Origin: Chloroflexia bacterium SDU3-3
GTDB taxonomy: Bacteria; Chloroflexota; Chloroflexia; Chloroflexales; Roseiflexaceae
Reading direction: 5' to 3'
Length of the DNA stretch: 64,000 nt
NCBI GenBank assembly: GCA_009268125.1
Contig: WBOU01000005.1
Span: 310,001-374,000, forward strand
Shown piece after piece: positions 3,911 to 40,795 of this stretch. Position 1 is the first letter of the stretch; the number at the start of each line of letters is the position of its first letter. The translations under genes and the position numbers were made by a program. Below the pieces are notes generated by a model. It saw only the letters and a list, made by a program, of their open reading frames with translations. It did not search any database and had not been told where the DNA came from.

Positions 3911-3942
3911 ATTAGCGTAGACTAATATCATCTATTTGTCAA
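3911..3942 (-). promoter_or_regulatory. Promoter with overlapping inverted repeat upstream of the FecCD operon
   Basis: Reading the minus strand, TTGACA (3942-3937) is followed after 17 bases by a poor -10 (TACGCT, 3919-3914). A 16-bp inverted repeat ATTAG-N6-CTAAT (3911-3926) covers the -10 region, as expected of a repressor operator. It is not a clear match to classical Fur or DtxR boxes. Confidence 0.5.
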
Positions 3943-3989
3943 GTTTATACTATCCAAATATGCAAAGAGCTAGACCGCTTCTAGCGCCT

Positions 3990-9086: not shown

Positions 9087-9172
9087 TGGTGCCGGAGGCG
9101 GGTCTCGAACCCGCACGAGGTTGCCCTCAGGGGTTTTTAAGACCCCAGCGTCTGCCATTCCGCCACTCCGGC
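9087..9172 (-). tRNA. tRNA-Leu (anticodon TAA)
   Basis: The minus strand folds as a class II tRNA. The acceptor stem GCCGGAG pairs with CTCCGGC, the anticodon stem GGGGT/ACCCC encloses loop CTTAAAA (anticodon TAA, reading UUA), there is a long variable arm (GAGGGCAACCTC), and the T arm contains GGTTCGAGACC. The discriminator A and the CCA end are encoded in the DNA. The gene stands alone with its own terminator. Confidence 0.95.
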
Positions 9173-30851: not shown

Positions 30852-32555
30852 CTAGCTGGCCCAGAGCACCTCGTCGGTGGGCACGAGGGTGCGCGCGGCC
30901 CAGTCGCCGAAGGCCTCGCCCTCGCGCCGCGTGCCGCGCCACTGGTCGAAGGCCTCGGCCAGCACATCGGCCAGCACGTCGCCGCGCACATCCGACTTGT
31001 ACAGCCGGGCCAGGCGGGTGCCCTCGAAGCTGCCGCCCACGAACACGTTGTAGAGGTTCAGGCTGCGCCCGACGATGCCGATCTCCGCCGTGGGCGGGCG
31101 CGAGCAGGCGTTGTGGCAGCCGCTCATGCGGATCCACACGCGCTCGCTGCCGTAGCCGCGCTCTTCGAGCTGGCCGATCACCTTGGGCAGGAAGCGCTCG
31201 CTCTCGGCCACAGCCAGGCCGCAGGTGGGCATGGCCACGCAGGCCATGGCGTAGCGCCGCAGCTCGCTCAGCTCGCCGCCAGATGTGCGCAGGCCGTAGG
31301 CATCCAGCTGCTCCTGCAGCGCCGCCTTGTCGGCCTCGTCGATGTTCACCAGCACCAGGTTCTGCTGGGCGGTCAGGCGTATCTCGGGGCGGAAGCGCTC
31401 GATGATCGCGCGCAGGCCCTCCTTGCTGCGGGTGGTCGCGTCGTTCTTGATGCGCCCGTTCTCGACCCAGATGCCCACCAGCCAGCGGCCATCCTTCTGC
31501 TGCTCCCAGCCCAGGTGGTCGTGCACCTCGTAGGTGGGCACCTCGGCGGGCGCGGCCAGCTCGTAGCCCAGCACCTTGGAGACCTCGTCGCGGAACCACT
31601 GCACGCCGCGCTCGGCCAGCACATACTTCAGGCGGGCGTGGCGGCGGTTGCTGCGGTCGCCCGAGTCGCGGTAGACCGCGCTGGCGGCCTCGATCACGCT
31701 CTGGGCCTGATCGGGCGTGGTGAAGCCCACGCGGTCGGCCAGGCGCGGGAAGGTCTCGGCCTTGCCGTGGGTGCTGCCCAGGCCGCCGCCGGCCAGCAGG
31801 TTGAAGCCGCGCACCGCGCCGCCCTCGCCCAGCACCGCCTCCAGCGCCAGATCGTGGGTGAAGATGTCCACGCAGTTATCGTTCGGCAGGCCGATGGCCA
31901 TCTTGTGCTTGCGCGGCATGTACTGCGTGCCGTAGAACGACTCGCTGCGGGTGGGGGCGACCTTCACGCGCGTGCCGTCGGAGAGGAACTTCTCGCCGTC
32001 GAGCCACAGCTCGTAGTAGGCGGTGGACTCGGGCAGGAAGTGGTCGCTGATCTTCAGCGCCAGCTCCTGGAAGTCGAAGTCGTAGCCGGGCAGCAGGTCG
32101 GCCACCGGGCAGGCCATGAAGTTGCGGGCCACGTCGCCGCAGCCGCCGTAGGTGGTCATCCAGCGCTCGTTCAGCGCGCGGATGAGCGGCTTCATGTTGG
32201 CCTTGCCCACGCCGTGGAACTGGAAATCCTGCCGCGTGGTGATGCGCAGCGTGCCGTTGGCGTACTTGGTGGCCAGCTCGTCGGCCAGCAGGTACTGCTC
32301 GGCGGTCAGCCGCCCGCCAGCGAACTTGGTGCGCACCATGAACGACCAGGCGCGGCCCAGCCCCTGCTTCTTGCGCGCCTGGCGCTCGTCGCGGTTGTCC
32401 TGCTGGTAGGAGCCGTGGAACTTCAGTAGCTGGTTCGCATCGTCGGAGACATTCTCCGTCGAGAGATCGCGCATCTCATCAAAGATCAGGCCGCCGAGGC
32501 CGTTCTCGATCTTCAGATGCTCAACGTGGGACAGCTCGGGTGTTTCCTCAGACAT
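30852..32555 (-). CDS. sir: Assimilatory sulfite reductase, siroheme/4Fe-4S subunit
   Basis: 567 residues. It reduces sulfite to sulfide with six electrons at a coupled siroheme-[4Fe-4S] centre. Cluster ligands are C-x5-C (CVAMPTC) and C-x3-C (CHNAC) near residues 430-480, and siroheme-binding Arg/Lys-rich segments (TRQDFQFHGVGK, RRHARLKYVLAERG) are present. Two ferredoxin-like half domains precede each part. It most resembles CysI/ferredoxin-type sulfite reductase rather than nitrite reductase, which the sulfur-gene context supports. GGAG precedes ATG 32555; the frame upstream of it is not coding. Last gene of the minus-strand sulfur cluster. Confidence 0.92.
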   Translation of the reverse strand: MSEETPELSHVEHLKIENGLGGLIFDEMRDLSTENVSDDANQLLKFHGSYQQDNRDERQARKKQGLGRAWSFMVRTKFAGGRLTAEQYLLADELATKYANGTLRITTRQDFQFHGVGKANMKPLIRALNERWMTTYGGCGDVARNFMACPVADLLPGYDFDFQELALKISDHFLPESTAYYELWLDGEKFLSDGTRVKVAPTRSESFYGTQYMPRKHKMAIGLPNDNCVDIFTHDLALEAVLGEGGAVRGFNLLAGGGLGSTHGKAETFPRLADRVGFTTPDQAQSVIEAASAVYRDSGDRSNRRHARLKYVLAERGVQWFRDEVSKVLGYELAAPAEVPTYEVHDHLGWEQQKDGRWLVGIWVENGRIKNDATTRSKEGLRAIIERFRPEIRLTAQQNLVLVNIDEADKAALQEQLDAYGLRTSGGELSELRRYAMACVAMPTCGLAVAESERFLPKVIGQLEERGYGSERVWIRMSGCHNACSRPPTAEIGIVGRSLNLYNVFVGGSFEGTRLARLYKSDVRGDVLADVLAEAFDQWRGTRREGEAFGDWAARTLVPTDEVLWAS

Positions 32556-32701
32556 AGGGAGACTCCTCATAGTCGCCAGGAGCGCTGGCAGATGCTGGGT
32601 GACCGTGCCGAAATGCATGCGATGGGGGGCACGCGGGGAGAATACCACACCACGGCAAAAAAGACGAAGGGCGGCGTAGGCCCGCGTGAACCCCAGCTGC
32701 A

Positions 32702-33226
32702 TTAGAGATACCCCAGCTCCTCCAGCTTGCGGATGATCTTGGCCGCGCTCTCCTGCGGGGTCTCCTCGGCGGAATCCACCACCACCTCGGGGTTCAGCGG
32801 CTCCTCGTAGGGGTCGCTCACGCCGGTGAACTGGGTGATCTCGCCCGCCAGCGCCTTCTTGTACAGACCCTTCACATCGCGCTCGATCGCGACCTCCAGC
32901 GGCACGTGCACGTACACCTCGACGAAGTTGCCGATCTTGCCGCGCAGCTCGTCGCGGATCGCGCGGTAGGGCGAGATCGCGGCGGAGATCGCCACCACGT
33001 CGTTGCGGGTCAGCACCTCGCACACCCAGCCGATGCGGCGGATGTTGGTGTCGCGGTCCTCCTTCGAGAACCCAAGGCCCTTGGAGAGGTTGGTGCGCAC
33101 CACGTCGCCATCCAGCACCTCTACCTTCTTGCCGCGCTCGCGCAGGTCTTTCTCGATGATCTCGGAGAGGGTCGACTTTCCAGCGCCAGACAGCCCAGTG
33201 AACCAGATCGTAAAGCCGGTGGACAT
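32702..33226 (-). CDS. cysC: Adenylylsulfate kinase
   Basis: 174 residues; phosphorylates APS to PAPS using ATP. P-loop [11 protein letters not shown] (about 9-19), DGDVVR (APS-binding), [16 protein letters not shown] and the [12 protein letters not shown] loop are all present. An AGGAGC site precedes ATG 33226. It lies between the ABC permease and sulfite reductase genes. Since CysH here looks like an APS reductase, PAPS may serve sulfotransferases or act as a parallel route. Confidence 0.95.
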
Positions 33227-33273
33227 GTTCGCTCCTTCAGACAGCAAATAGTCGGTAGAAAAATCAGCGGGAA

Positions 33274-34089
33274 CTACGATTCGGTCAGGCCCCAGCGCAC
33301 GCGCACGCGGTGCTCGATCGGGGCGAAGATGATACGGTCGATGGCGACGCCCACCATGATGATCAGGATCATCACGGCCATCACCTGGGCGGCGTCGTTC
33401 AGGTCGCGCCCGGTCTGCAGCAGGTTGCCCAGGCTGAGCGTAAAGTACAGCAGCTCGCCCGCCATCAGGCTGCGCCACGCGAACGACCAGCCCTGCTTCA
33501 GGCCGCCCAGGATGGTGGGCAGGGCGGCGGGCAGCACCACTTGGGTGTACACGGCGGGGCCGCGCGTGCCCAGGGTGCGGGCGGCGCGCAGGAAGATCGG
33601 CGGCGTGTTCTTGACGCCCGCCTCCACGCCCAGCGTGATCGAGAACAGCGCGCCCATCACCACCACGAAGATAATCGCCCGCTCGTTCAGGCCGAACCAG
33701 AGGATGGAGAGCGGCAGCCAGCACACGCTGGGCAGGGCCTGCAGGCCCAGCACCAGCGAGCCGAGCGTCTCGTTCAGCCACTTAATCCGACCGATCAGCA
33801 GGCCCAGCACCACGCCGATGGCCAGCGAGATGCCGTAGCCGATCGCCAGGCGCTTCAGGCTCACCAGGGTGGCGGTCAGGAAGCCGCCGGTGGTGATGCC
33901 CGCCCACAGCGTGCGCAGCACCTCGATCGGGCCGGGCAGCAGGTAGGGCGGCCAGATGCCCGCGCGGGCCACCAGCTCCCACCCGGCCAGCAGCGCCAGG
34001 TAGAAGGCCAGCCGCCGCAGCCAGGGGCCAGCCGACTCGGCCAGCGCGGCAGATGCGGTGCGCTGGATGGGCAGGGCGTCGTTGCTCAT
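33274..34089 (-). CDS. ABC transporter permease, SsuC/TauC type
   Basis: 271 residues, six membrane helices with the BPD_transp_1 coupling motif ([36 protein letters not shown]). Its start overlaps the stop of the ATPase gene by one base (TGATG). It belongs to the nitrate/sulfonate/taurine permease group. Its place inside the sulfate-assimilation cluster argues for a sulfonate, or even sulfate, substrate. Confidence 0.9.
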
Positions 34090-34919
34090 CAGGCGGCCTC
34101 CATGGCGGTGCGCAGCACGCCCAGGATCTCGGCGGCCTTGTGGGCCAGGGCCGGATCCTCCAGACTGCGGGTGCGCGGCAGGTCGATGCGGTAGTCGGCG
34201 ATCACGCGGCCCGGGCGGGGCGAGAACACCAGCACGCGGTCGCCCAGGGCCACGGCCTCGCGCACGTTGTGGGTCACAAACACGATGGTCTTGCGCGTGC
34301 TGGACCAGATCGCCTCTAGCTCGGCGTGCAGGCGGTCGCGGGTGAGCGCATCCAGCGCGCCGAACGGCTCATCCATCAGCAGCACCGAGGGGTTGATGGC
34401 CAGCGCGCGGGCGATGGCGGCGCGCTGCCGCATGCCGCCGGAGAGCTGGTGCACGTAGCTGCGCTCGAAGCCCTGGAGGCCGACCACGCCCAGCAGCTCA
34501 CGGGCGCGGTCGGCGCGCTCGCGGGCGGGCACGCCTAGCTGGCGCATGCCGTACTCCACGTTGTGCTGCACATCCAGCCAGGGAAACAGCGCCGCCTCCT
34601 GGAACAGCAGCACGCGCTCGGTGCCTGGGCCTTGGATGGCCTGGCCGTTGGCGTAGATCGTGCCGCTGGTGGGCGCATCTAGCCCGGCGATGATGCTGAG
34701 CAGCGTGGATTTGCCGCAGCCGCTCGGCCCCAGCAGGCACACGAACTCGCCAGCGGCGATGTCGAGCGTGGTCGGCTCAAGCGCCGTCACCAGGCCAGCG
34801 CGGCTCACAAACTGCTTGGAGACGCCCTCTACCCGCAGCGGGATGCCGCCGCTGGTCGGCTCGGATGCCGACACGTTGCGCTGTGTGTTCACCGCCACCC
34901 CAGAAACTCGTTCGACCAT
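34089..34919 (-). CDS. ABC transporter ATPase, SsuB/TauB type
   Basis: 276 residues: Walker A GPSGCGKST, signature LSGGMRQRAAIARAL, Walker B LLMDEPFGALD, His switch FVTHNVREA. The typical SsuB C-terminus (RPGRVIADYRIDLPRTRSLEDP) is present. A GGAG site precedes the ATG. It forms an importer with the permease and lipoprotein on either side. Confidence 0.92.
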   Translation of the reverse strand: MVERVSGVAVNTQRNVSASEPTSGGIPLRVEGVSKQFVSRAGLVTALEPTTLDIAAGEFVCLLGPSGCGKSTLLSIIAGLDAPTSGTIYANGQAIQGPGTERVLLFQEAALFPWLDVQHNVEYGMRQLGVPARERADRARELLGVVGLQGFERSYVHQLSGGMRQRAAIARALAINPSVLLMDEPFGALDALTRDRLHAELEAIWSSTRKTIVFVTHNVREAVALGDRVLVFSPRPGRVIADYRIDLPRTRSLEDPALAHKAAEILGVLRTAMEAA

Positions 34920-34997
34920 GTGATAGCTCCCCGTGGCCCGCCCCAGGCGCTGCGGCCTGAGGCGGGGCGTCTTCCCACTGCTTCTCGATGCGCGCCG

Positions 34998-36134
34998 CTA
35001 CTGCGCGGCCACGGGCGCGAGGCCCTTCTCCTTCAGCACCTCGTTGAGCGGCCCCAGGTCGTAGATCCCGCTCAGGTCGGGCTTCGCGGCCCCCAGGAAG
35101 CCGAGCGCGAAGGCGTGATCGGCGGATGTGAACAGCGACTGGGCCAGGGGGTCGTAGGTGATGTCCAGGTTTTTGTAGGCCGCCTCCAGCACCGCATCCG
35201 AGAGCGCCGCGCCGGTGATCCGCTTCAGCTCGCTGTTGACGATCTTCTTGGTCTCATCGGGGTTCTGCTTGATGAACTCCACAGTCTCGACGTGGGCGGC
35301 CAAGAAGGCCTTGACCAGGTCGGGGTGCTCGGACAGGAACTTGCGGCTGGCGATCACGTGGGTGGTGACAAACTGACCGTTGGGCCAGATCGTCCGCTCA
35401 TCCACCAGCACCTTGCCGTTGGCCTCCTGGATGAGGCGCGAGGCCCACGGCTCGGGCACCCACGCGCCATCGATCGCGCCCTGCTTGAACAGCGTGAGGA
35501 TGTCGGCGTTCTGGGTCGGGATGATCTCGACCGTGCCGCCCTTCTCCGCCGTCTGCAGGCCATTCTCCTGGATGTAGTAGCGCAGCGCCACATCCTGGGT
35601 GCCGCCCAGCTGCGGCGACGCGATCTTCTTGCCATCAAGATCCTTGCCAGAGGCGATGTTCGACTCGGGGCGGACGATGAACAGCGCGCCGCCGCTGGCC
35701 GCGCCCGCCACCACGCGCAGGGCGTCGCCCTTGCTCTTCACATAGCCGTTGATCGCCGGGTTCGGCCCGATGTAGCCTAGGTCGATCTCGCCTGCGAACA
35801 GCGCCTCGATCAGGGCGGGGCCGGCGTTGAAGGTCTTCACATCCAGCGTCGCGTTCGCGCCCAGCGCATCCTTGAACGTGCCGCGCGCCACGCCCACCAC
35901 CGCCGGGGCGTGGGTCAGGTTGGGGAAATAGCCCAGCCGCACCGTCACGCCCGCGCCGGATGGGGCGGGGGCGGCCTGCTCGGTGGCGGCGGCCTGCCCG
36001 GCGGCAGGCGCGGTGGCGCTCGGCGTATGGGTCGCCCCCGATGGGGCCGTGGTCACCGCGCTGCTGCCACACGCCGCTAGAATGAAGAGTGCCGCCGCCG
36101 CCGCCATCGCCCGAAACGAGATGAGCTTCCTCAT
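34998..36134 (-). CDS. Lipoprotein solute-binding protein, SsuA/NrtA type
   Basis: 378 residues. The lipobox signal peptide (MAAAAALFILAACGSS) is followed by a Thr/Ala/Pro linker. The ligand-binding domain (VRLGYFPNLTHAPAVVGVARGTF, FNAGPALIEALFAGEIDLGYIGPNPAINGYVK, LGGTQDVALRYYIQENGL) has the periplasmic-binding fold of sulfonate/nitrate-type proteins. I start at ATG 36134, which has AAAGG upstream. It feeds the adjacent ATPase/permease pair. Confidence 0.9.
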   Translation of the reverse strand: MRKLISFRAMAAAAALFILAACGSSAVTTAPSGATHTPSATAPAAGQAAATEQAAPAPSGAGVTVRLGYFPNLTHAPAVVGVARGTFKDALGANATLDVKTFNAGPALIEALFAGEIDLGYIGPNPAINGYVKSKGDALRVVAGAASGGALFIVRPESNIASGKDLDGKKIASPQLGGTQDVALRYYIQENGLQTAEKGGTVEIIPTQNADILTLFKQGAIDGAWVPEPWASRLIQEANGKVLVDERTIWPNGQFVTTHVIASRKFLSEHPDLVKAFLAAHVETVEFIKQNPDETKKIVNSELKRITGAALSDAVLEAAYKNLDITYDPLAQSLFTSADHAFALGFLGAAKPDLSGIYDLGPLNEVLKEKGLAPVAAQ

Positions 36135-36185
36135 GAGCGTTCGCCTTTCCATTCTAGCCAGAAAAAACCGGACAACCAGCAGCGA

Positions 36186-37355
36186 CTAGGCCGACTGGGC
36201 CTGCGCGTAGGCCTCGATCAGCACCTGCGCGACCTCGGGGCGGGTGAACTCGGGCGGCGGAAGCTCGCCAGCGCTCAGCAGCTCGCGCACCTTGGTGCCG
36301 CTCAGAATCAGGTGGTGCGAGTGGTCGTGCGGGCAGGTGCGCGAGGAGACAATCGAGCCGCAGGTGCGGCAGTAGAAGGTGTGCTCGAACTTCACCGGCG
36401 TGACCAGCAGGTCGCCCGGCTGCAAGGTGTCGAACAACAGCTGCGCGTCGTAGGTGCCGTAGTAGTTGCCCACGCCCGCGTGGTCGCGGCCCACGATGAA
36501 GTGGGTGCAGCCGTAGTTCTGGCGCGAGATCGCGTGGATGATCGCCTCGCGCGGGCCAGCGTAGCGCATCGCCGCCGGGTAGGCGGCCAGCAGCACGCGG
36601 TTCTTGGGGTAGTAGCCCTCCAGCAGCACCTCGTACGAGCGCACGCGGGTGGCGGCGGGCACGTCGTCGCCCTTGGTGGCGCCCACCAGCGGGTGCAGCA
36701 GCAGGCCGTCGATGGTCTCCAGCGCGACCTTCTGCAGGTACTCGTGGGCGCGGTGCACCGGGTTGCGCGTCTGGAAGCCGACAATCGTGCTCCAGCCCTG
36801 CTCGGCGAAGTAGGCGCGGGTCTCGGCGGGGGTGTAGGCCAGCTGCGGGAACGAGGGCGCGATCGGGGCCAGCTGCCAGACCGGCCCGGCCAGCAGCACC
36901 GGCCCCTGGCGGTAGAGCCGCGCCACGCCGGGGTGGGCCTCGTCGGTGGTGCGGTAGACCAGCTCGGCCTCGCGGCGCACATCCACGCGGTACTTCTCCT
37001 GCAGCTCCAGCAGACCCACCAGCTGGCCATCCTGGCTGCGCAGGGCCACGCGGTCGCCCTCGCTCAGCGCTGCGGCCTGCTCCTCGCTCACGGCCAGCGT
37101 GATCGGGATGGGCCAGAGCGTGCCGTTGGAAAGGCGCATCTCGCTGATCACGCGCTCGTGGTCGGCGCTGCCCAGAAAGCCGGTGAGCGGGCTGTAGACG
37201 CCGGTCGCGATCAGCTCAAGGTCGGCCAGGCCCACCTCGTTCAGCACCACCGTGGGCGCGCTGGCGGCCTGGGCAAGCGCATCATCCAGCGCGCTGCCGC
37301 TGAGCACGCGGTTCACAAGCTCGCCGCCGTGGGGAAGGATCTGCTGTGTTGCCAT
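36186..37355 (-). CDS. sat: Sulfate adenylyltransferase (ATP sulfurylase)
   Basis: 389 residues of the single-chain Sat/MET3 type; makes APS from sulfate and ATP. Active-site motifs [15 protein letters not shown] (QTRN and HxxH) and [17 protein letters not shown] are intact. A C-terminal Cys/His cluster ([22 protein letters not shown]) probably binds zinc. There is no fused APS-kinase domain, consistent with separate cysC. Start at 37355 has GAGGAGA upstream. Confidence 0.95.
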
Positions 37356-37464
37356 TCTCTCCTCGGATTCGTTTCGATTCAATGCACTGCCAGGGAAGCT
37401 CGGCTGGCGGGCAACGGGTGGCGCGAGAAGCGCAGCTGCCCGCCAGCTATATGAGAGGGTTTGA

Positions 37465-38181
<717 letters not shown>

Positions 38182-38287
38182 CGATCTCGCCTTCCACAAA
38201 GAGAAACCCGGCTGTGCCAGGGTGGCCAGCGGGTTCATGCCTCAGCGCACGGTGTAAATGTTGTGCAATACACTCTAGTTACTTAGG

Positions 38288-38344
38288 ATAATATTATAGT
38301 TGACTTTACTTGTCAAGTACTTTATAATTTCGGCGCTTGTCAAG
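38288..38344. promoter_or_regulatory. Overlapping divergent promoters with palindromic operator
   Basis: Plus strand: TTGACT (38300-38305), 17-base spacer, TATAAT (38323-38328), driving the siroheme genes. Minus strand: TTGACA (38316-38311), 17-base spacer, TATTAT (38293-38288), driving cysH and the rest. A perfect 13-bp palindrome TACTTGTCAAGTA (38307-38319) covers the minus -35 and the plus spacer. A second CTTGTCAAG lies at 38336-38344. One regulator bound there could control both arms. Confidence 0.7.
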
Positions 38345-38430
38345 CAATAACTTCTTGATTTCGGCCTTCTTCTACCGCCGCCCGCGCTGCCGCACAGCGC
38401 GCAGCCACCGCAAGAAACTCGACAAACTAC

Positions 38431-39108
38431 ATGCCCGCATACCCGATCATCCTCACCCAGCTCGATCAGGCCCGTGTTATTGTCATAGGCGGGGGCAGCG
38501 TCGCCGAGCGCAAGATCGCAGGGCTGATCGAGGGCGGCGCGTGTCCCGTGGTGATCTGCCCCACGATCACCGCAGCGCTCGCAGCCTGGCACGCCGAAGG
38601 TAAGATCACATGGCAGGCCCGCCCCTACGCCGAGGGCGACCTAGCCGGGGCCGCGCTGGCCATCGCCGCCACCAACGTGCGCGGCGTCAACGCTGCCGTG
38701 GCCGACGAGGCCCGCAGGCGCGGCGTGCTGGCCAACATCAGCGACGCACCCGAGGAGGGTGGCTGGACCACCACCGCCACCGTGCGGCGCGGCGACCTGC
38801 TGATTGCCGCCACCACCAACGGAGCCAGCCCATCCCTCACCGCCGCCATCCGCCGCGAGCTTGAGGCCGCCTACGGCGACGAGTACGCCGCGCTGCTCGC
38901 ACTGCTGCGCGAGATCCGCGCCGGCCCCGCGCGCAGCCTGCCCCCCGCCGCACGCACAGCCCTGCTGCGCAGGCTGGCCAGCCGCGAGGCGCTGGCCCTG
39001 GTGCGCGGCGGCCAGCACGAGCAGATCGCCCAGATCGTGGCGCAGGCGCTGGCGGAAGCCGCGCCCGAGCAGCCACACCAAACGCCCAAGGAGCACACCC
39101 ATGAGTAG
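38431..39108 (+). CDS. Precorrin-2 dehydrogenase (siroheme synthase N-terminal type)
   Basis: 225 residues, like the CysG N-terminal half/Met8. NAD-binding VIVIGGGSVAERKIAGLIEGG (about 17-37), AIAATNVRGVNAAVADEARRRG, then NISDAPEEGGWTTTATVRRGDLLIAATTNGASPSL typical of the family, and a helical dimerisation end. Oxidises precorrin-2 to sirohydrochlorin and may insert iron. No Shine-Dalgarno is obvious, consistent with a short leader from the divergent promoter. Confidence 0.92.
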   Translation: MPAYPIILTQLDQARVIVIGGGSVAERKIAGLIEGGACPVVICPTITAALAAWHAEGKITWQARPYAEGDLAGAALAIAATNVRGVNAAVADEARRRGVLANISDAPEEGGWTTTATVRRGDLLIAATTNGASPSLTAAIRRELEAAYGDEYAALLALLREIRAGPARSLPPAARTALLRRLASREALALVRGGQHEQIAQIVAQALAEAAPEQPHQTPKEHTHE

Positions 39109-39913
39109 CACCGGCTTTGTCTCGCTGGTGGGCGCTGGCCCCGGCGATATCGAACTGATCACGGTGAAGGGGCTGCGCAGGCTGCAGCAGGCCGACGTGG
39201 TGCTGTACGACGCGCTCAGCAGCCCACAGCTGCTGGAGGAGTGCCGCCCCGACGCGCTGCTGATCGCCGTGGGCAAGCGCAGCGGCAAGATCTCGGCATC
39301 GCAGTCCGCGATCAACCAGCTGCTGGTCGCCCACGGCCAGGCGGGCAGGCGGGTGGTGCGGCTGAAGGGCGGCGACCCCTTCGTGTTCGGGCGCGGCGGC
39401 GAGGAGGCCGAGGCCCTGACGGCGGCTGGCATCCCGTGGGAGGTGGTGCCGGGCATCTCGTCGGCCATCGGCGTGCCCGCCTACGCGGGCATCCCCGTGA
39501 CCCACCGCGAGGCGGCCTCGTCGGTGACGATCGTCACCGGCCACGAAGATCCCTCGCGCATGGAGACCCGTATGAACTGGCACGCGCTGGCCCAGGGCGC
39601 AGACACGCTGGTGTTCCTGATGGGGCTGGGCAGCATCGCCGAGATCGCCGCGCACCTGATCGCCCACGGTCGGCCCACCGACACCCCCGCCGCCGTGATC
39701 AGCCACGGCACCACCGCCGCCCAGCAGGTGGTGGTCGGCTCGCTTGAGAATATCGCCGACGCCGTGCAGCAGGCCGGGGTCAGCACCCCAGCAGCGATCG
39801 TGGTGGGCGAGGTGGTGCGGCTGCGCGAGCGGCTGGCTTGGTTCGCCGCCGAGCACGGCATCCAGCCCGCGCCCGCAGCCGAGCCGCTGGCCGTGGCGCG
39901 CGGCCAGCGCTAA
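39101..39913 (+). CDS. cobA: Uroporphyrinogen-III C-methyltransferase
   Basis: 270 residues. SAM-dependent methylation of uroporphyrinogen III to precorrin-2. Motifs: VSLVGAGPGDIELITVKGLRRLQQADVVLYD at the N-terminus, VRLKGGDPFVFGRGGEEAEAL and VVPGISSAIGVPAYAGIPVTHR. The ATG overlaps the end of the upstream gene by eight bases, with AAGGAG just before. Together the two genes replace a fused CysG. Confidence 0.95.
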   Translation: MSSTGFVSLVGAGPGDIELITVKGLRRLQQADVVLYDALSSPQLLEECRPDALLIAVGKRSGKISASQSAINQLLVAHGQAGRRVVRLKGGDPFVFGRGGEEAEALTAAGIPWEVVPGISSAIGVPAYAGIPVTHREAASSVTIVTGHEDPSRMETRMNWHALAQGADTLVFLMGLGSIAEIAAHLIAHGRPTDTPAAVISHGTTAAQQVVVGSLENIADAVQQAGVSTPAAIVVGEVVRLRERLAWFAAEHGIQPAPAAEPLAVARGQR

Positions 39914-39955
39914 AGACACACCCGCGTACACAGCAGAGCAGGAGGAGGAGAGGCG

Positions 39956-40795
39956 ATGTTGTTGGCGCAGCAGATCTCGACGACTACCGCGCAGCCGCGC
40001 GGCGAGGCCCGCCGCCACGCGGTGATGCTGGTGGGGCATGGCAGCCTGCGGCTTGGCTCGGGCGCATCCATGATCCGCCTCGCGGGCCACCTGCGCGCGG
40101 CGGGGGCCGCCCCGATCACCCAGGCCGCGTTTCTCAACTACACCCGCCCCTCGGTGGCCGAGGGCGTGGCGCGCTGCATCGCGCGCGGGGCGGAAACGAT
40201 CACGGTGCTGCCCTACTTCCTGGTGCCGGGCTGGTTTGTCACCAGCGCGCTGCCCAAGCAGCTCCGCGCCTGCCAGCTGGCCCACCCCGGCGTGCCGATC
40301 GCGCAGGCCGCGCCGCTGGGCGACCACCCGGCCCTAGCGCGGCTGGTGGCCCAGCGCGCCGCCGAGGCTTCCCAGCGCCACTGGCAGCGCCCGCCCCCGC
40401 CCCACACCGCGCTGCTAATGATCGCCCACGGCAGCCCCGACGGGCGCAACAACCGCCCGATCTACCAGGTGGCCGAGCGAGTGCGGGCATCAGGGAAGTT
40501 CGCGCATGTGGCAGTCTGCTTTATGGATCTGAACGCGCCCAGCATCGGCGCGGCGGTGGAGGCGGCGGTGGGGGATGGGGCGAGGCGCGTGGTCGCGGTG
40601 CCCTACTTCCTGCAGATGGGCAACCATGTGGCCGAGGATCTGCCGCAGCTGGTGGGCGAGGCCGGGGCGCGCTTCCCACACACCCCTGTGGTGCTGGCCG
40701 AGCACCTGGGCTACGACCGCGCGCTGCTAGGGCCGCTGGCCGACCGCGCCGCCGAGGTACAGAGGATTCGCTCTGAAATCAAGATAGAAAAATAA
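39956..40795 (+). CDS. Tandem sirohydrochlorin chelatase (CbiX-like)
   Basis: 279 residues comprising two CbiX/SirB domains in a row. First: HAVMLVGHGSLRLGSGASMI ... ITVLPYFLVPGWFV; second: ALLMIAHGSPDGRNNRPIY ... RVVAVPYFLQMGNHVAEDLP. Each carries the metal-ligand His of the HGS motif. It likely inserts Fe2+ into sirohydrochlorin for the sulfite reductase across the divergent promoter; cobalt insertion for cobalamin is an alternative. GGAGGAGG precedes the ATG. Confidence 0.88.
   Translation: MLLAQQISTTTAQPRGEARRHAVMLVGHGSLRLGSGASMIRLAGHLRAAGAAPITQAAFLNYTRPSVAEGVARCIARGAETITVLPYFLVPGWFVTSALPKQLRACQLAHPGVPIAQAAPLGDHPALARLVAQRAAEASQRHWQRPPPPHTALLMIAHGSPDGRNNRPIYQVAERVRASGKFAHVAVCFMDLNAPSIGAAVEAAVGDGARRVVAVPYFLQMGNHVAEDLPQLVGEAGARFPHTPVVLAEHLGYDRALLGPLADRAAEVQRIRSEIKIEK

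Follow-up and report, generated by a model that had tools for sequence, protein, structure and literature searches.

A predicted operator shared by facing sulfate-assimilation and siroheme promoters in the Chloroflexales

In the Chloroflexia bacterium SDU3-3, a 23-bp inverted repeat overlaps two promoter-like sequences that face each other between a sulfate-assimilation operon and a siroheme operon, and the same repeat recurs before sulfur genes in relatives throughout the order Chloroflexales. The explanation that we favor, and hold to be rather probable as a whole, is that the repeat is the operator of a Chloroflexales sulfur regulon and that its repressor is probably a CymR-like protein of the Rrf2 family encoded elsewhere in the genome. 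Should this prove correct, sulfur genes of a little-studied phylum could be predicted from the operator, and the locus would be a compact case of enzyme-cofactor coordination through one two-way operator. The stretch of DNA analyzed, here called the window, comprises 64,000 nucleotides of contig WBOU01000005.1.

Ten genes in two operons surround the repeat. The minus-strand sulfate-assimilation operon (cysH, sat, an SsuABC-type transporter, cysC and sir) runs from 38238 down to 30852; the plus-strand siroheme operon (met8, cobA and a CbiX/CfbA-type chelatase) runs from 38431 to 40795. Family searches assigned the genes as follows:

37465-38238, minus strand: cysH, phosphoadenylyl-sulfate reductase (NF002537, 271 bits)
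36186-37382, minus strand: sat, sulfate adenylyltransferase (NF003166)
34998-36152, minus strand: SsuA-type substrate-binding protein (TIGR01728, over cut-off)
34089-34919, minus strand: ABC ATPase of SsuB/TauB/SaoA type (best match NF040729, below its cut-off)
33274-34089, minus strand: ABC permease of SsuC/SaoP type (best match NF040733, below its cut-off)
32702-33238, minus strand: cysC, adenylyl-sulfate kinase (NF002059)
30852-32588, minus strand: sir/cysI, assimilatory sulfite reductase hemoprotein, a siroheme enzyme (NF010029)
38431-39108, plus strand: met8/cysG N-terminal type siroheme synthase (TIGR01470)
39101-39913, plus strand: cobA, uroporphyrinogen-III C-methyltransferase (TIGR01469)
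39956-40795, plus strand: CbiX/CfbA-type sirohydrochlorin chelatase (NF033198, 115 bits, just under the cut-off of 120)

None of the ten, from 30852 to 40795, is a regulator gene, in agreement with a preliminary description of this DNA. The intergenic region between cysH and met8 is 192 bases long and contains both overlapping promoters. These are sigma-70-like, with 11 of 12 consensus matches and a 17-bp spacer each; between 37400 and 39200 two such promoters were found where 0.3 would be expected. The elements of the region are:

38300-38328, plus strand: promoter towards met8-cobA-chelatase, TTGACT (38300-38305), 17 bp, TATAAT (38323-38328)
38288-38316, minus strand: promoter towards the cysH operon, TTGACA (38316-38311), 17 bp, TATTAT (38293-38288)
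38297-38319, no strand: predicted operator TAGTTGAC-TTTACTT-GTCAAGTA, with 8-bp arms, a 7-bp spacer and one arm mismatch
38307-38319, no strand: palindrome TACTTGTCAAGTA, whose right half coincides with the operator's right arm and whose left half lacks conservation
38336-38344, no strand: second CTTGTCAAG, present in the window and absent from the relative G006

Which of these sequences would a regulator read? The preliminary description correctly saw two promoters overlapping head to head (38300-38328 and 38316-38288) and proposed the palindrome, with the second CTTGTCAAG, as the shared site within them. Both sequences exist, but the second CTTGTCAAG lies outside both core promoters, 3' of the plus promoter's -10 box and upstream of the minus promoter's -35 box. 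The 13-bp palindrome alone is unremarkable, because the window contains 20 odd palindromes with arms of at least 6 bases and the 13-mer (central base A or T) is not enriched genome-wide, giving 30 forward matches at up to two mismatches versus 43 for the reversed control. The expectation that it would be conserved in orthologous intergenic regions failed: G006 has a disrupted copy, and in 17 groups of relatives the closest match before cysH or sir differs at 2 to 5 positions.

The exact palindrome occurs twice in the genome. Its second copy (L012 1501-1513; G000 C6:14794) stands before a gene that by eye resembles a sugar ABC substrate-binding gene and contains TTGACA, 17 bp from a TACACT read by eye. 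Neither conserved nor enriched, and with this second copy before a sugar-ABC-like gene, the palindrome was rejected as a functional unit. So was the second CTTGTCAAG as a tandem site, since it is gone in G006 and missing from the top eight of a matrix scan.

The inverted repeat TAGTTGAC-N7-GTCAAGTA overlaps the palindrome in another register, with only the palindrome's right half common to both. The relative G006 has a cysH fragment with 78% identity to the window's, and ATAGTTGACTTGCTTTGTCAAGTAACTTATAAT precedes its met8-cobA-chelatase operon. There all 16 of 16 arm bases are kept and the plus promoter has the hexamers and spacing of the window's; the left half of the palindrome and the second CTTGTCAAG are lost. 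The putative cysH on the far side of the G006 repeat is a weak match at a contig end.

We searched for the consensus of the repeat, TACTTGAC-N7-ATCAAGTA, in 32 upstream regions from 17 groups of relatives (genus g10 counted as two), with the window and G006 excluded. The region upstream of sir was added for G077 and G081, since sir precedes cysH there, and G079 was tested at cysH only; partial locus L010 was left out, and of the cysH matches lacking a locus only those in G044 and G081 were included. The consensus stands before cysH or sir in 7 of the 17 groups at up to two mismatches and in 10 at up to three, against a mean of at most 0.06 groups and a maximum of 1 for 300 permuted and 300 permuted palindromic patterns. 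The consensus was drawn partly from the loci on which it was tested; hence the test was repeated with a pattern taken from the window only, leaving out L056 and L064, where cysH is inside an operon. This pattern was found in 4, 6 and 10 of 17 groups at up to two, three and four mismatches. Permuting its right arm gave means of 0.02, 0.13 and 0.88 groups, and in 300 permutations the observed counts were never attained; with the left arm permuted, the observed value was reached once in 300 trials at up to three mismatches and twice at up to four. Spacing matters as well. At up to three mismatches no spacer from 3 to 12, apart from 7, matched more than two groups; at up to four, spacer 3 gave 6 groups and spacer 12 gave 7, against 10 for spacer 7.

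Sites are present in all four families of the order. A matrix built without the window and G006 sites ranks the operator as the best site in the window, with a score of 24.5; block-shuffled windows had a mean maximum of 14.8 and once reached 24.0, which makes this control unhelpful. In a matrix of 22 chosen sites, TAC before TTGAC and GTA after the right-hand TCAA are conserved. Across 82 genomes of the order, the two-mismatch pattern barely outnumbers its reversed control, with 171 matches versus 160, so single weak matches mean little without context. Seven of the 17 groups have no site at up to three mismatches before cysH; they include the six tested genomes of genus g8, which belongs to the same family as the window, and four genomes of g20. 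Eleven loci of relatives from other groups yielded three matches with three mismatches, all more than 2 kb from cysH, and nothing convincing. The 23-bp repeat is nonetheless conserved far beyond chance, and we predict with considerable confidence that a sulfur operator exists.

Several unlinked sulfur operons carry such sites, as they do in a CymR-type regulon: cysH/sir, ssuE-ssuA-ssuD, metY, an organosulfur-type cluster and operons led by SAM riboswitches. In the SDU3-3 genome itself, four places match TACTTGACN7GTCAAGTA with up to two mismatches: the window operator, one site before ssuE-ssuA-ssuD, and two within a single cluster. The ssu genes are those of alkanesulfonate use, with SsuE and SsuD above their equivalog cut-offs and an ABC ATPase gene farther on. 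The two-site cluster, of organosulfur type, encodes an OppA-type transporter, a GNAT acetyltransferase, luciferase-like monooxygenases and an M20 amidohydrolase, a gene set that we take to resemble Bacillus clusters for sulfur-containing amino acids. At three mismatches there are 13 further places, or 17 in total versus 10 for the control; several of the 13 are GC-rich and probably coding, but one lies 26 nt before a SAM riboswitch (L143) and one before a DUF4395 gene.

The genome's own cysK-type (10, PF00291) and metY-type (3, PF01053) loci, 13 in all, have no site at up to three mismatches, a point on which a CymR-type regulon is not matched. Two GC-rich four-mismatch matches at these loci (L206, L212) lie away from promoters, and the metY leader in L212 has the left arm TACTTGAC without a right arm and a SAM riboswitch leader instead. 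Relatives G006, G039 and G026 have sites before metY or a metY cluster. Among 27 regions of relatives fetched because they hold a site, 13 are near a sulfur, siroheme, DUF4395 or Rrf2 gene and 14, G008:C560 and G072:C100 among them, have no evident sulfur gene, tallies that are not unbiased, the regions having been picked by eye, for AT-rich sites or cysH loci, among the matches listed. Genes at the fetched loci were called with a home-made open-reading-frame scorer based on amino-acid frequencies, and those described as identified by eye had no family search.

The repeat has a fixed relation to promoters. In 26 orientations chosen from 22 sites the left arm holds a -35 box, and in 25 of these the best -10 box lies 17 bp from it, the promoters having 9 to 11 of 12 consensus matches. 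The right arm serves as the -35 box of an opposite promoter at four loci, in the window, G006, G001 and G054. Three of these are divergent, and in G006 the far side is the contig end. In the reverse direction, G067 and G057 lack a good promoter and G044 has a poor one. The right arm falls within the promoter spacer, a stretch for which a promoter has no sequence requirement, and its being conserved therefore suggests that a protein reads it.

How might one site serve two operons? We propose that 38297-38319 is a single operator of the Chloroflexales sulfur regulon. Its arms TAGTTGAC and GTCAAGTA would supply the -35 boxes of two opposed promoters, that of cysH-sat-SsuABC-type transporter-cysC-sir and that of met8-cobA-chelatase. 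A dimeric repressor bound to it would overlie the two -35 boxes together with a portion of each spacer, and siroheme synthesis would be switched on and off jointly with the siroheme-requiring sulfite reductase. We infer repression rather than activation from the geometry of the site, on which a dimer would block both -35 boxes; binding would presumably occur when sulfur or cysteine is plentiful. The idea that a single factor links siroheme supply to sulfite-reductase synthesis, put forward in the preliminary description, is well supported by the comparison: one repeat spans both -35 boxes, and two-way repeats occur in G006, G001 and G054. The register in which the motif had been read was wrong, as its broken palindrome in G006 attests.

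Riboswitches are independent indications both of sulfur control and of a promoter located at the operator. A search of 38 loci gave ten SAM riboswitches, and six operator sites (L143, L157, L158, L172, L173 and L174) have a same-strand riboswitch that starts 26-38 nt downstream; at five of the six a cysH or sir operon follows. Two-tier control by operator and riboswitch is possible at these sites. Riboswitch control of sulfur genes in Chloroflexi has been published (PMC3766115), and the arrangement resembles known SAM riboswitch (S box, RF00162) systems in that the riboswitch lies directly 3' of the operator. It differs in the window, which contains no riboswitch at Rfam gathering scores, so that the operator alone would exert control there. 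The sole Rfam match in the window at those scores is a tRNA gene at 9090-9172.

Which protein would bind? The core TGAC-N7-RTCA within 23-25 bp is the geometry of Rrf2-type sites (the IscR type-1/RirA class), and the window repeat has it. The RirA iron-responsive IRO box of rhizobia, TGACTAAAATAATCAT, which reads TGAC-N7-ATCA (PMC10510648), shares its core and spacing with our consensus; RirA differs in that it regulates iron genes, is a [4Fe-4S] protein and belongs to another phylum. Type-1 sites of IscR in Escherichia coli and Pseudomonas follow YYGAC-N7-GTCRR with ATA/TAT flanks, and one in Pseudomonas lies between -35 and -10 (PMC6599224). The likeness to IscR sites extends to the inverted repeat, the flanks and this position, and the window segment matches 21 of 25 consensus positions, the best place in the window. 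IscR, however, targets iron-sulfur assembly rather than sulfur assimilation.

The SDU3-3 genome encodes three Rrf2 proteins over the Pfam cut-off. The candidate, at C5:247404-247838, scores 115.6 bits with PF02082, passes TIGR00738 and has IscR and CymR as its relatives in the PDB. With the CymR equivalog model NF047409 it scores 107 bits, under the cut-off of 195, and we therefore name it CymR-like only. A search of 82 Chloroflexales genomes at E <= 0.001 found relatives of the candidate in 78. The candidate has one cysteine. In an alignment of 49 relatives (45 distinct) the cysteine count is one in 41, zero in 4, two in 3 and three in a single sequence; column 132 alone is conserved (43 of 49), other cysteines being sporadic. 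Because only this single cysteine column is conserved, the candidate is unlikely to have a three-cysteine iron-sulfur cluster site, and it lacks the three cysteine ligands of IscR. Bacillus subtilis CymR likewise binds no iron-sulfur cluster (PMC9338935), and Bacillus CymR, together with CysK, represses ssu and cysteine genes (PMC3828012). The proposed regulon thus resembles the CymR regulon of B. subtilis and Staphylococcus aureus in having an Rrf2-type regulator, a single-cysteine candidate beside a cluster-free CymR, and overlapping targets in sulfonate use (ssu) and cysteine synthesis. It differs in that the candidate falls under the model cut-off and that a two-way promoter brings siroheme genes into the regulon.

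Gene neighborhoods in two relatives bear on the candidate, the best link being that in G028. In G028 a zero-mismatch consensus site is followed by a small open reading frame and then by a CymR-like Rrf2 gene, which lies 3' of a SAM-riboswitch-led gene resembling, by eye, a class-V aminotransferase. In G039 an operator-bearing metY cluster contains a CymR-like gene some 3.6 kb downstream of metY, and a fragment near it resembles CysK by eye, the only hint here of the CysK complex in which CymR acts to sense O-acetylserine. Around other CymR-like genes, the loci scanned had a three-mismatch match in L118 and L119 only. The 8-kb stretch around the SDU3-3 gene contains no site at up to three mismatches, and autoregulation was not found there; the neighbors, by eye, are ammonium-transport and glutamate-dehydrogenase genes. 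G067, a genome that is 75% complete, has a three-mismatch site yet no Rrf2 match. CymR-like genes also lie near genes that by eye resemble carboxymuconolactone decarboxylases or SDR genes in L159 (G039), L181 (G026) and L189 (G063); those in G039 belong to the metY cluster.

On this evidence, we put the prediction that an Rrf2 protein reads the operator at somewhat better than even. The repressor would be a CymR-like Rrf2 protein whose gene lies away from this locus, in SDU3-3 most likely at C5:247404-247838. The same sulfur-regulon operator could instead be read by another regulator, either a different Rrf2 protein or a member of the LysR, MarR or TetR family. The candidate gene is unlinked to the regulon in its own genome, two more Rrf2 proteins are at hand, and most genomes without a cysH site (g8 and g20 among the groups) nevertheless encode a CymR-like protein. 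We think another regulator rather unlikely all the same, in view of the TGAC-N7-RTCA spacing of known Rrf2 sites, the zero-mismatch site upstream of the CymR-like gene in G028 and the CymR-like gene in the G039 metY cluster; LysR dyads, moreover, are usually shorter.

A second alternative keeps the regulon and reverses the sign of control: a factor would stimulate transcription from the site at low sulfur, as CysB does. The targets are similar to those of the CysB regulon, and the sites are fixed relative to promoters. They cover, however, both the -35 box and the spacer of promoters that match 9 to 11 of 12 consensus bases, a position that suits occlusion, and one site facing two ways would be hard to use for activating both operons. 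We regard activation as distinctly improbable. It is highly improbable that the repeat is read by no protein and is a chance product of two head-to-head -35 boxes, as the TTGAC-type boxes in both arms and the TTGACA of the second exact palindrome might suggest, given that the right arm is kept in the spacer of one-way operons (ssu, metY, L143 and cysH of families f3 and f4), that permuting it destroys the signal, and that the TAC and GTA flanks of TTGAC are conserved in the 22-site matrix.

An operator bound by a CymR-like repressor therefore remains our preferred reading. Its fullest form would combine a Chloroflexales sulfur regulon under a cluster-free CymR-like Rrf2 repressor, facing -35 boxes at this locus, the operator stacked on a SAM riboswitch in other families for two-tier control, and DUF4395 genes as new members; this combination we advance tentatively, as having slightly less than an even chance of being right in every part. 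Among the matches listed by a keyword search of open-access literature, none dealt with transcription-factor control of sulfur assimilation in Chloroflexales. RegPrecise 3.0 is described as including a Chloroflexi collection that covers five genomes and lists 30 transcription-factor regulogs (PMC3840689), and an earlier computational prediction of the regulon, for example in that collection, is possible.

The DUF4395 genes are an unexpected addition. Operator-like sites with two to three mismatches stand just before genes of this family in three genera, and the promoters there fit less well:

L144 1608-1630, in SDU3-3 (contig C10): operator-like site before a DUF4395 gene
L231 1501-1523, in G077: operator-like site before a DUF4395 gene
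L232 1501-1523, in G081: operator-like site before a DUF4395 gene

Because such sites precede its genes in three genera, the pattern suggests a sulfur role for the DUF4395 family, with the qualification that one set of 12 genomes behind these sites was picked for already holding a site.

Two repeated sequences came to light in the course of the analysis. The sequence TATTTGTCAAGTT is identical at no fewer than four places in the genome, namely 3933-3945 of the window (G000 C5:313933), C6:93700, C6:420601 and C33:5730, and may belong to a repeated element. Around a weak pattern match in L079 (G000 C14, around 13184), GTTTCAGTGCTCAATCGTGAGCCGATGGGACAGAGAC is repeated in a CRISPR-like array.
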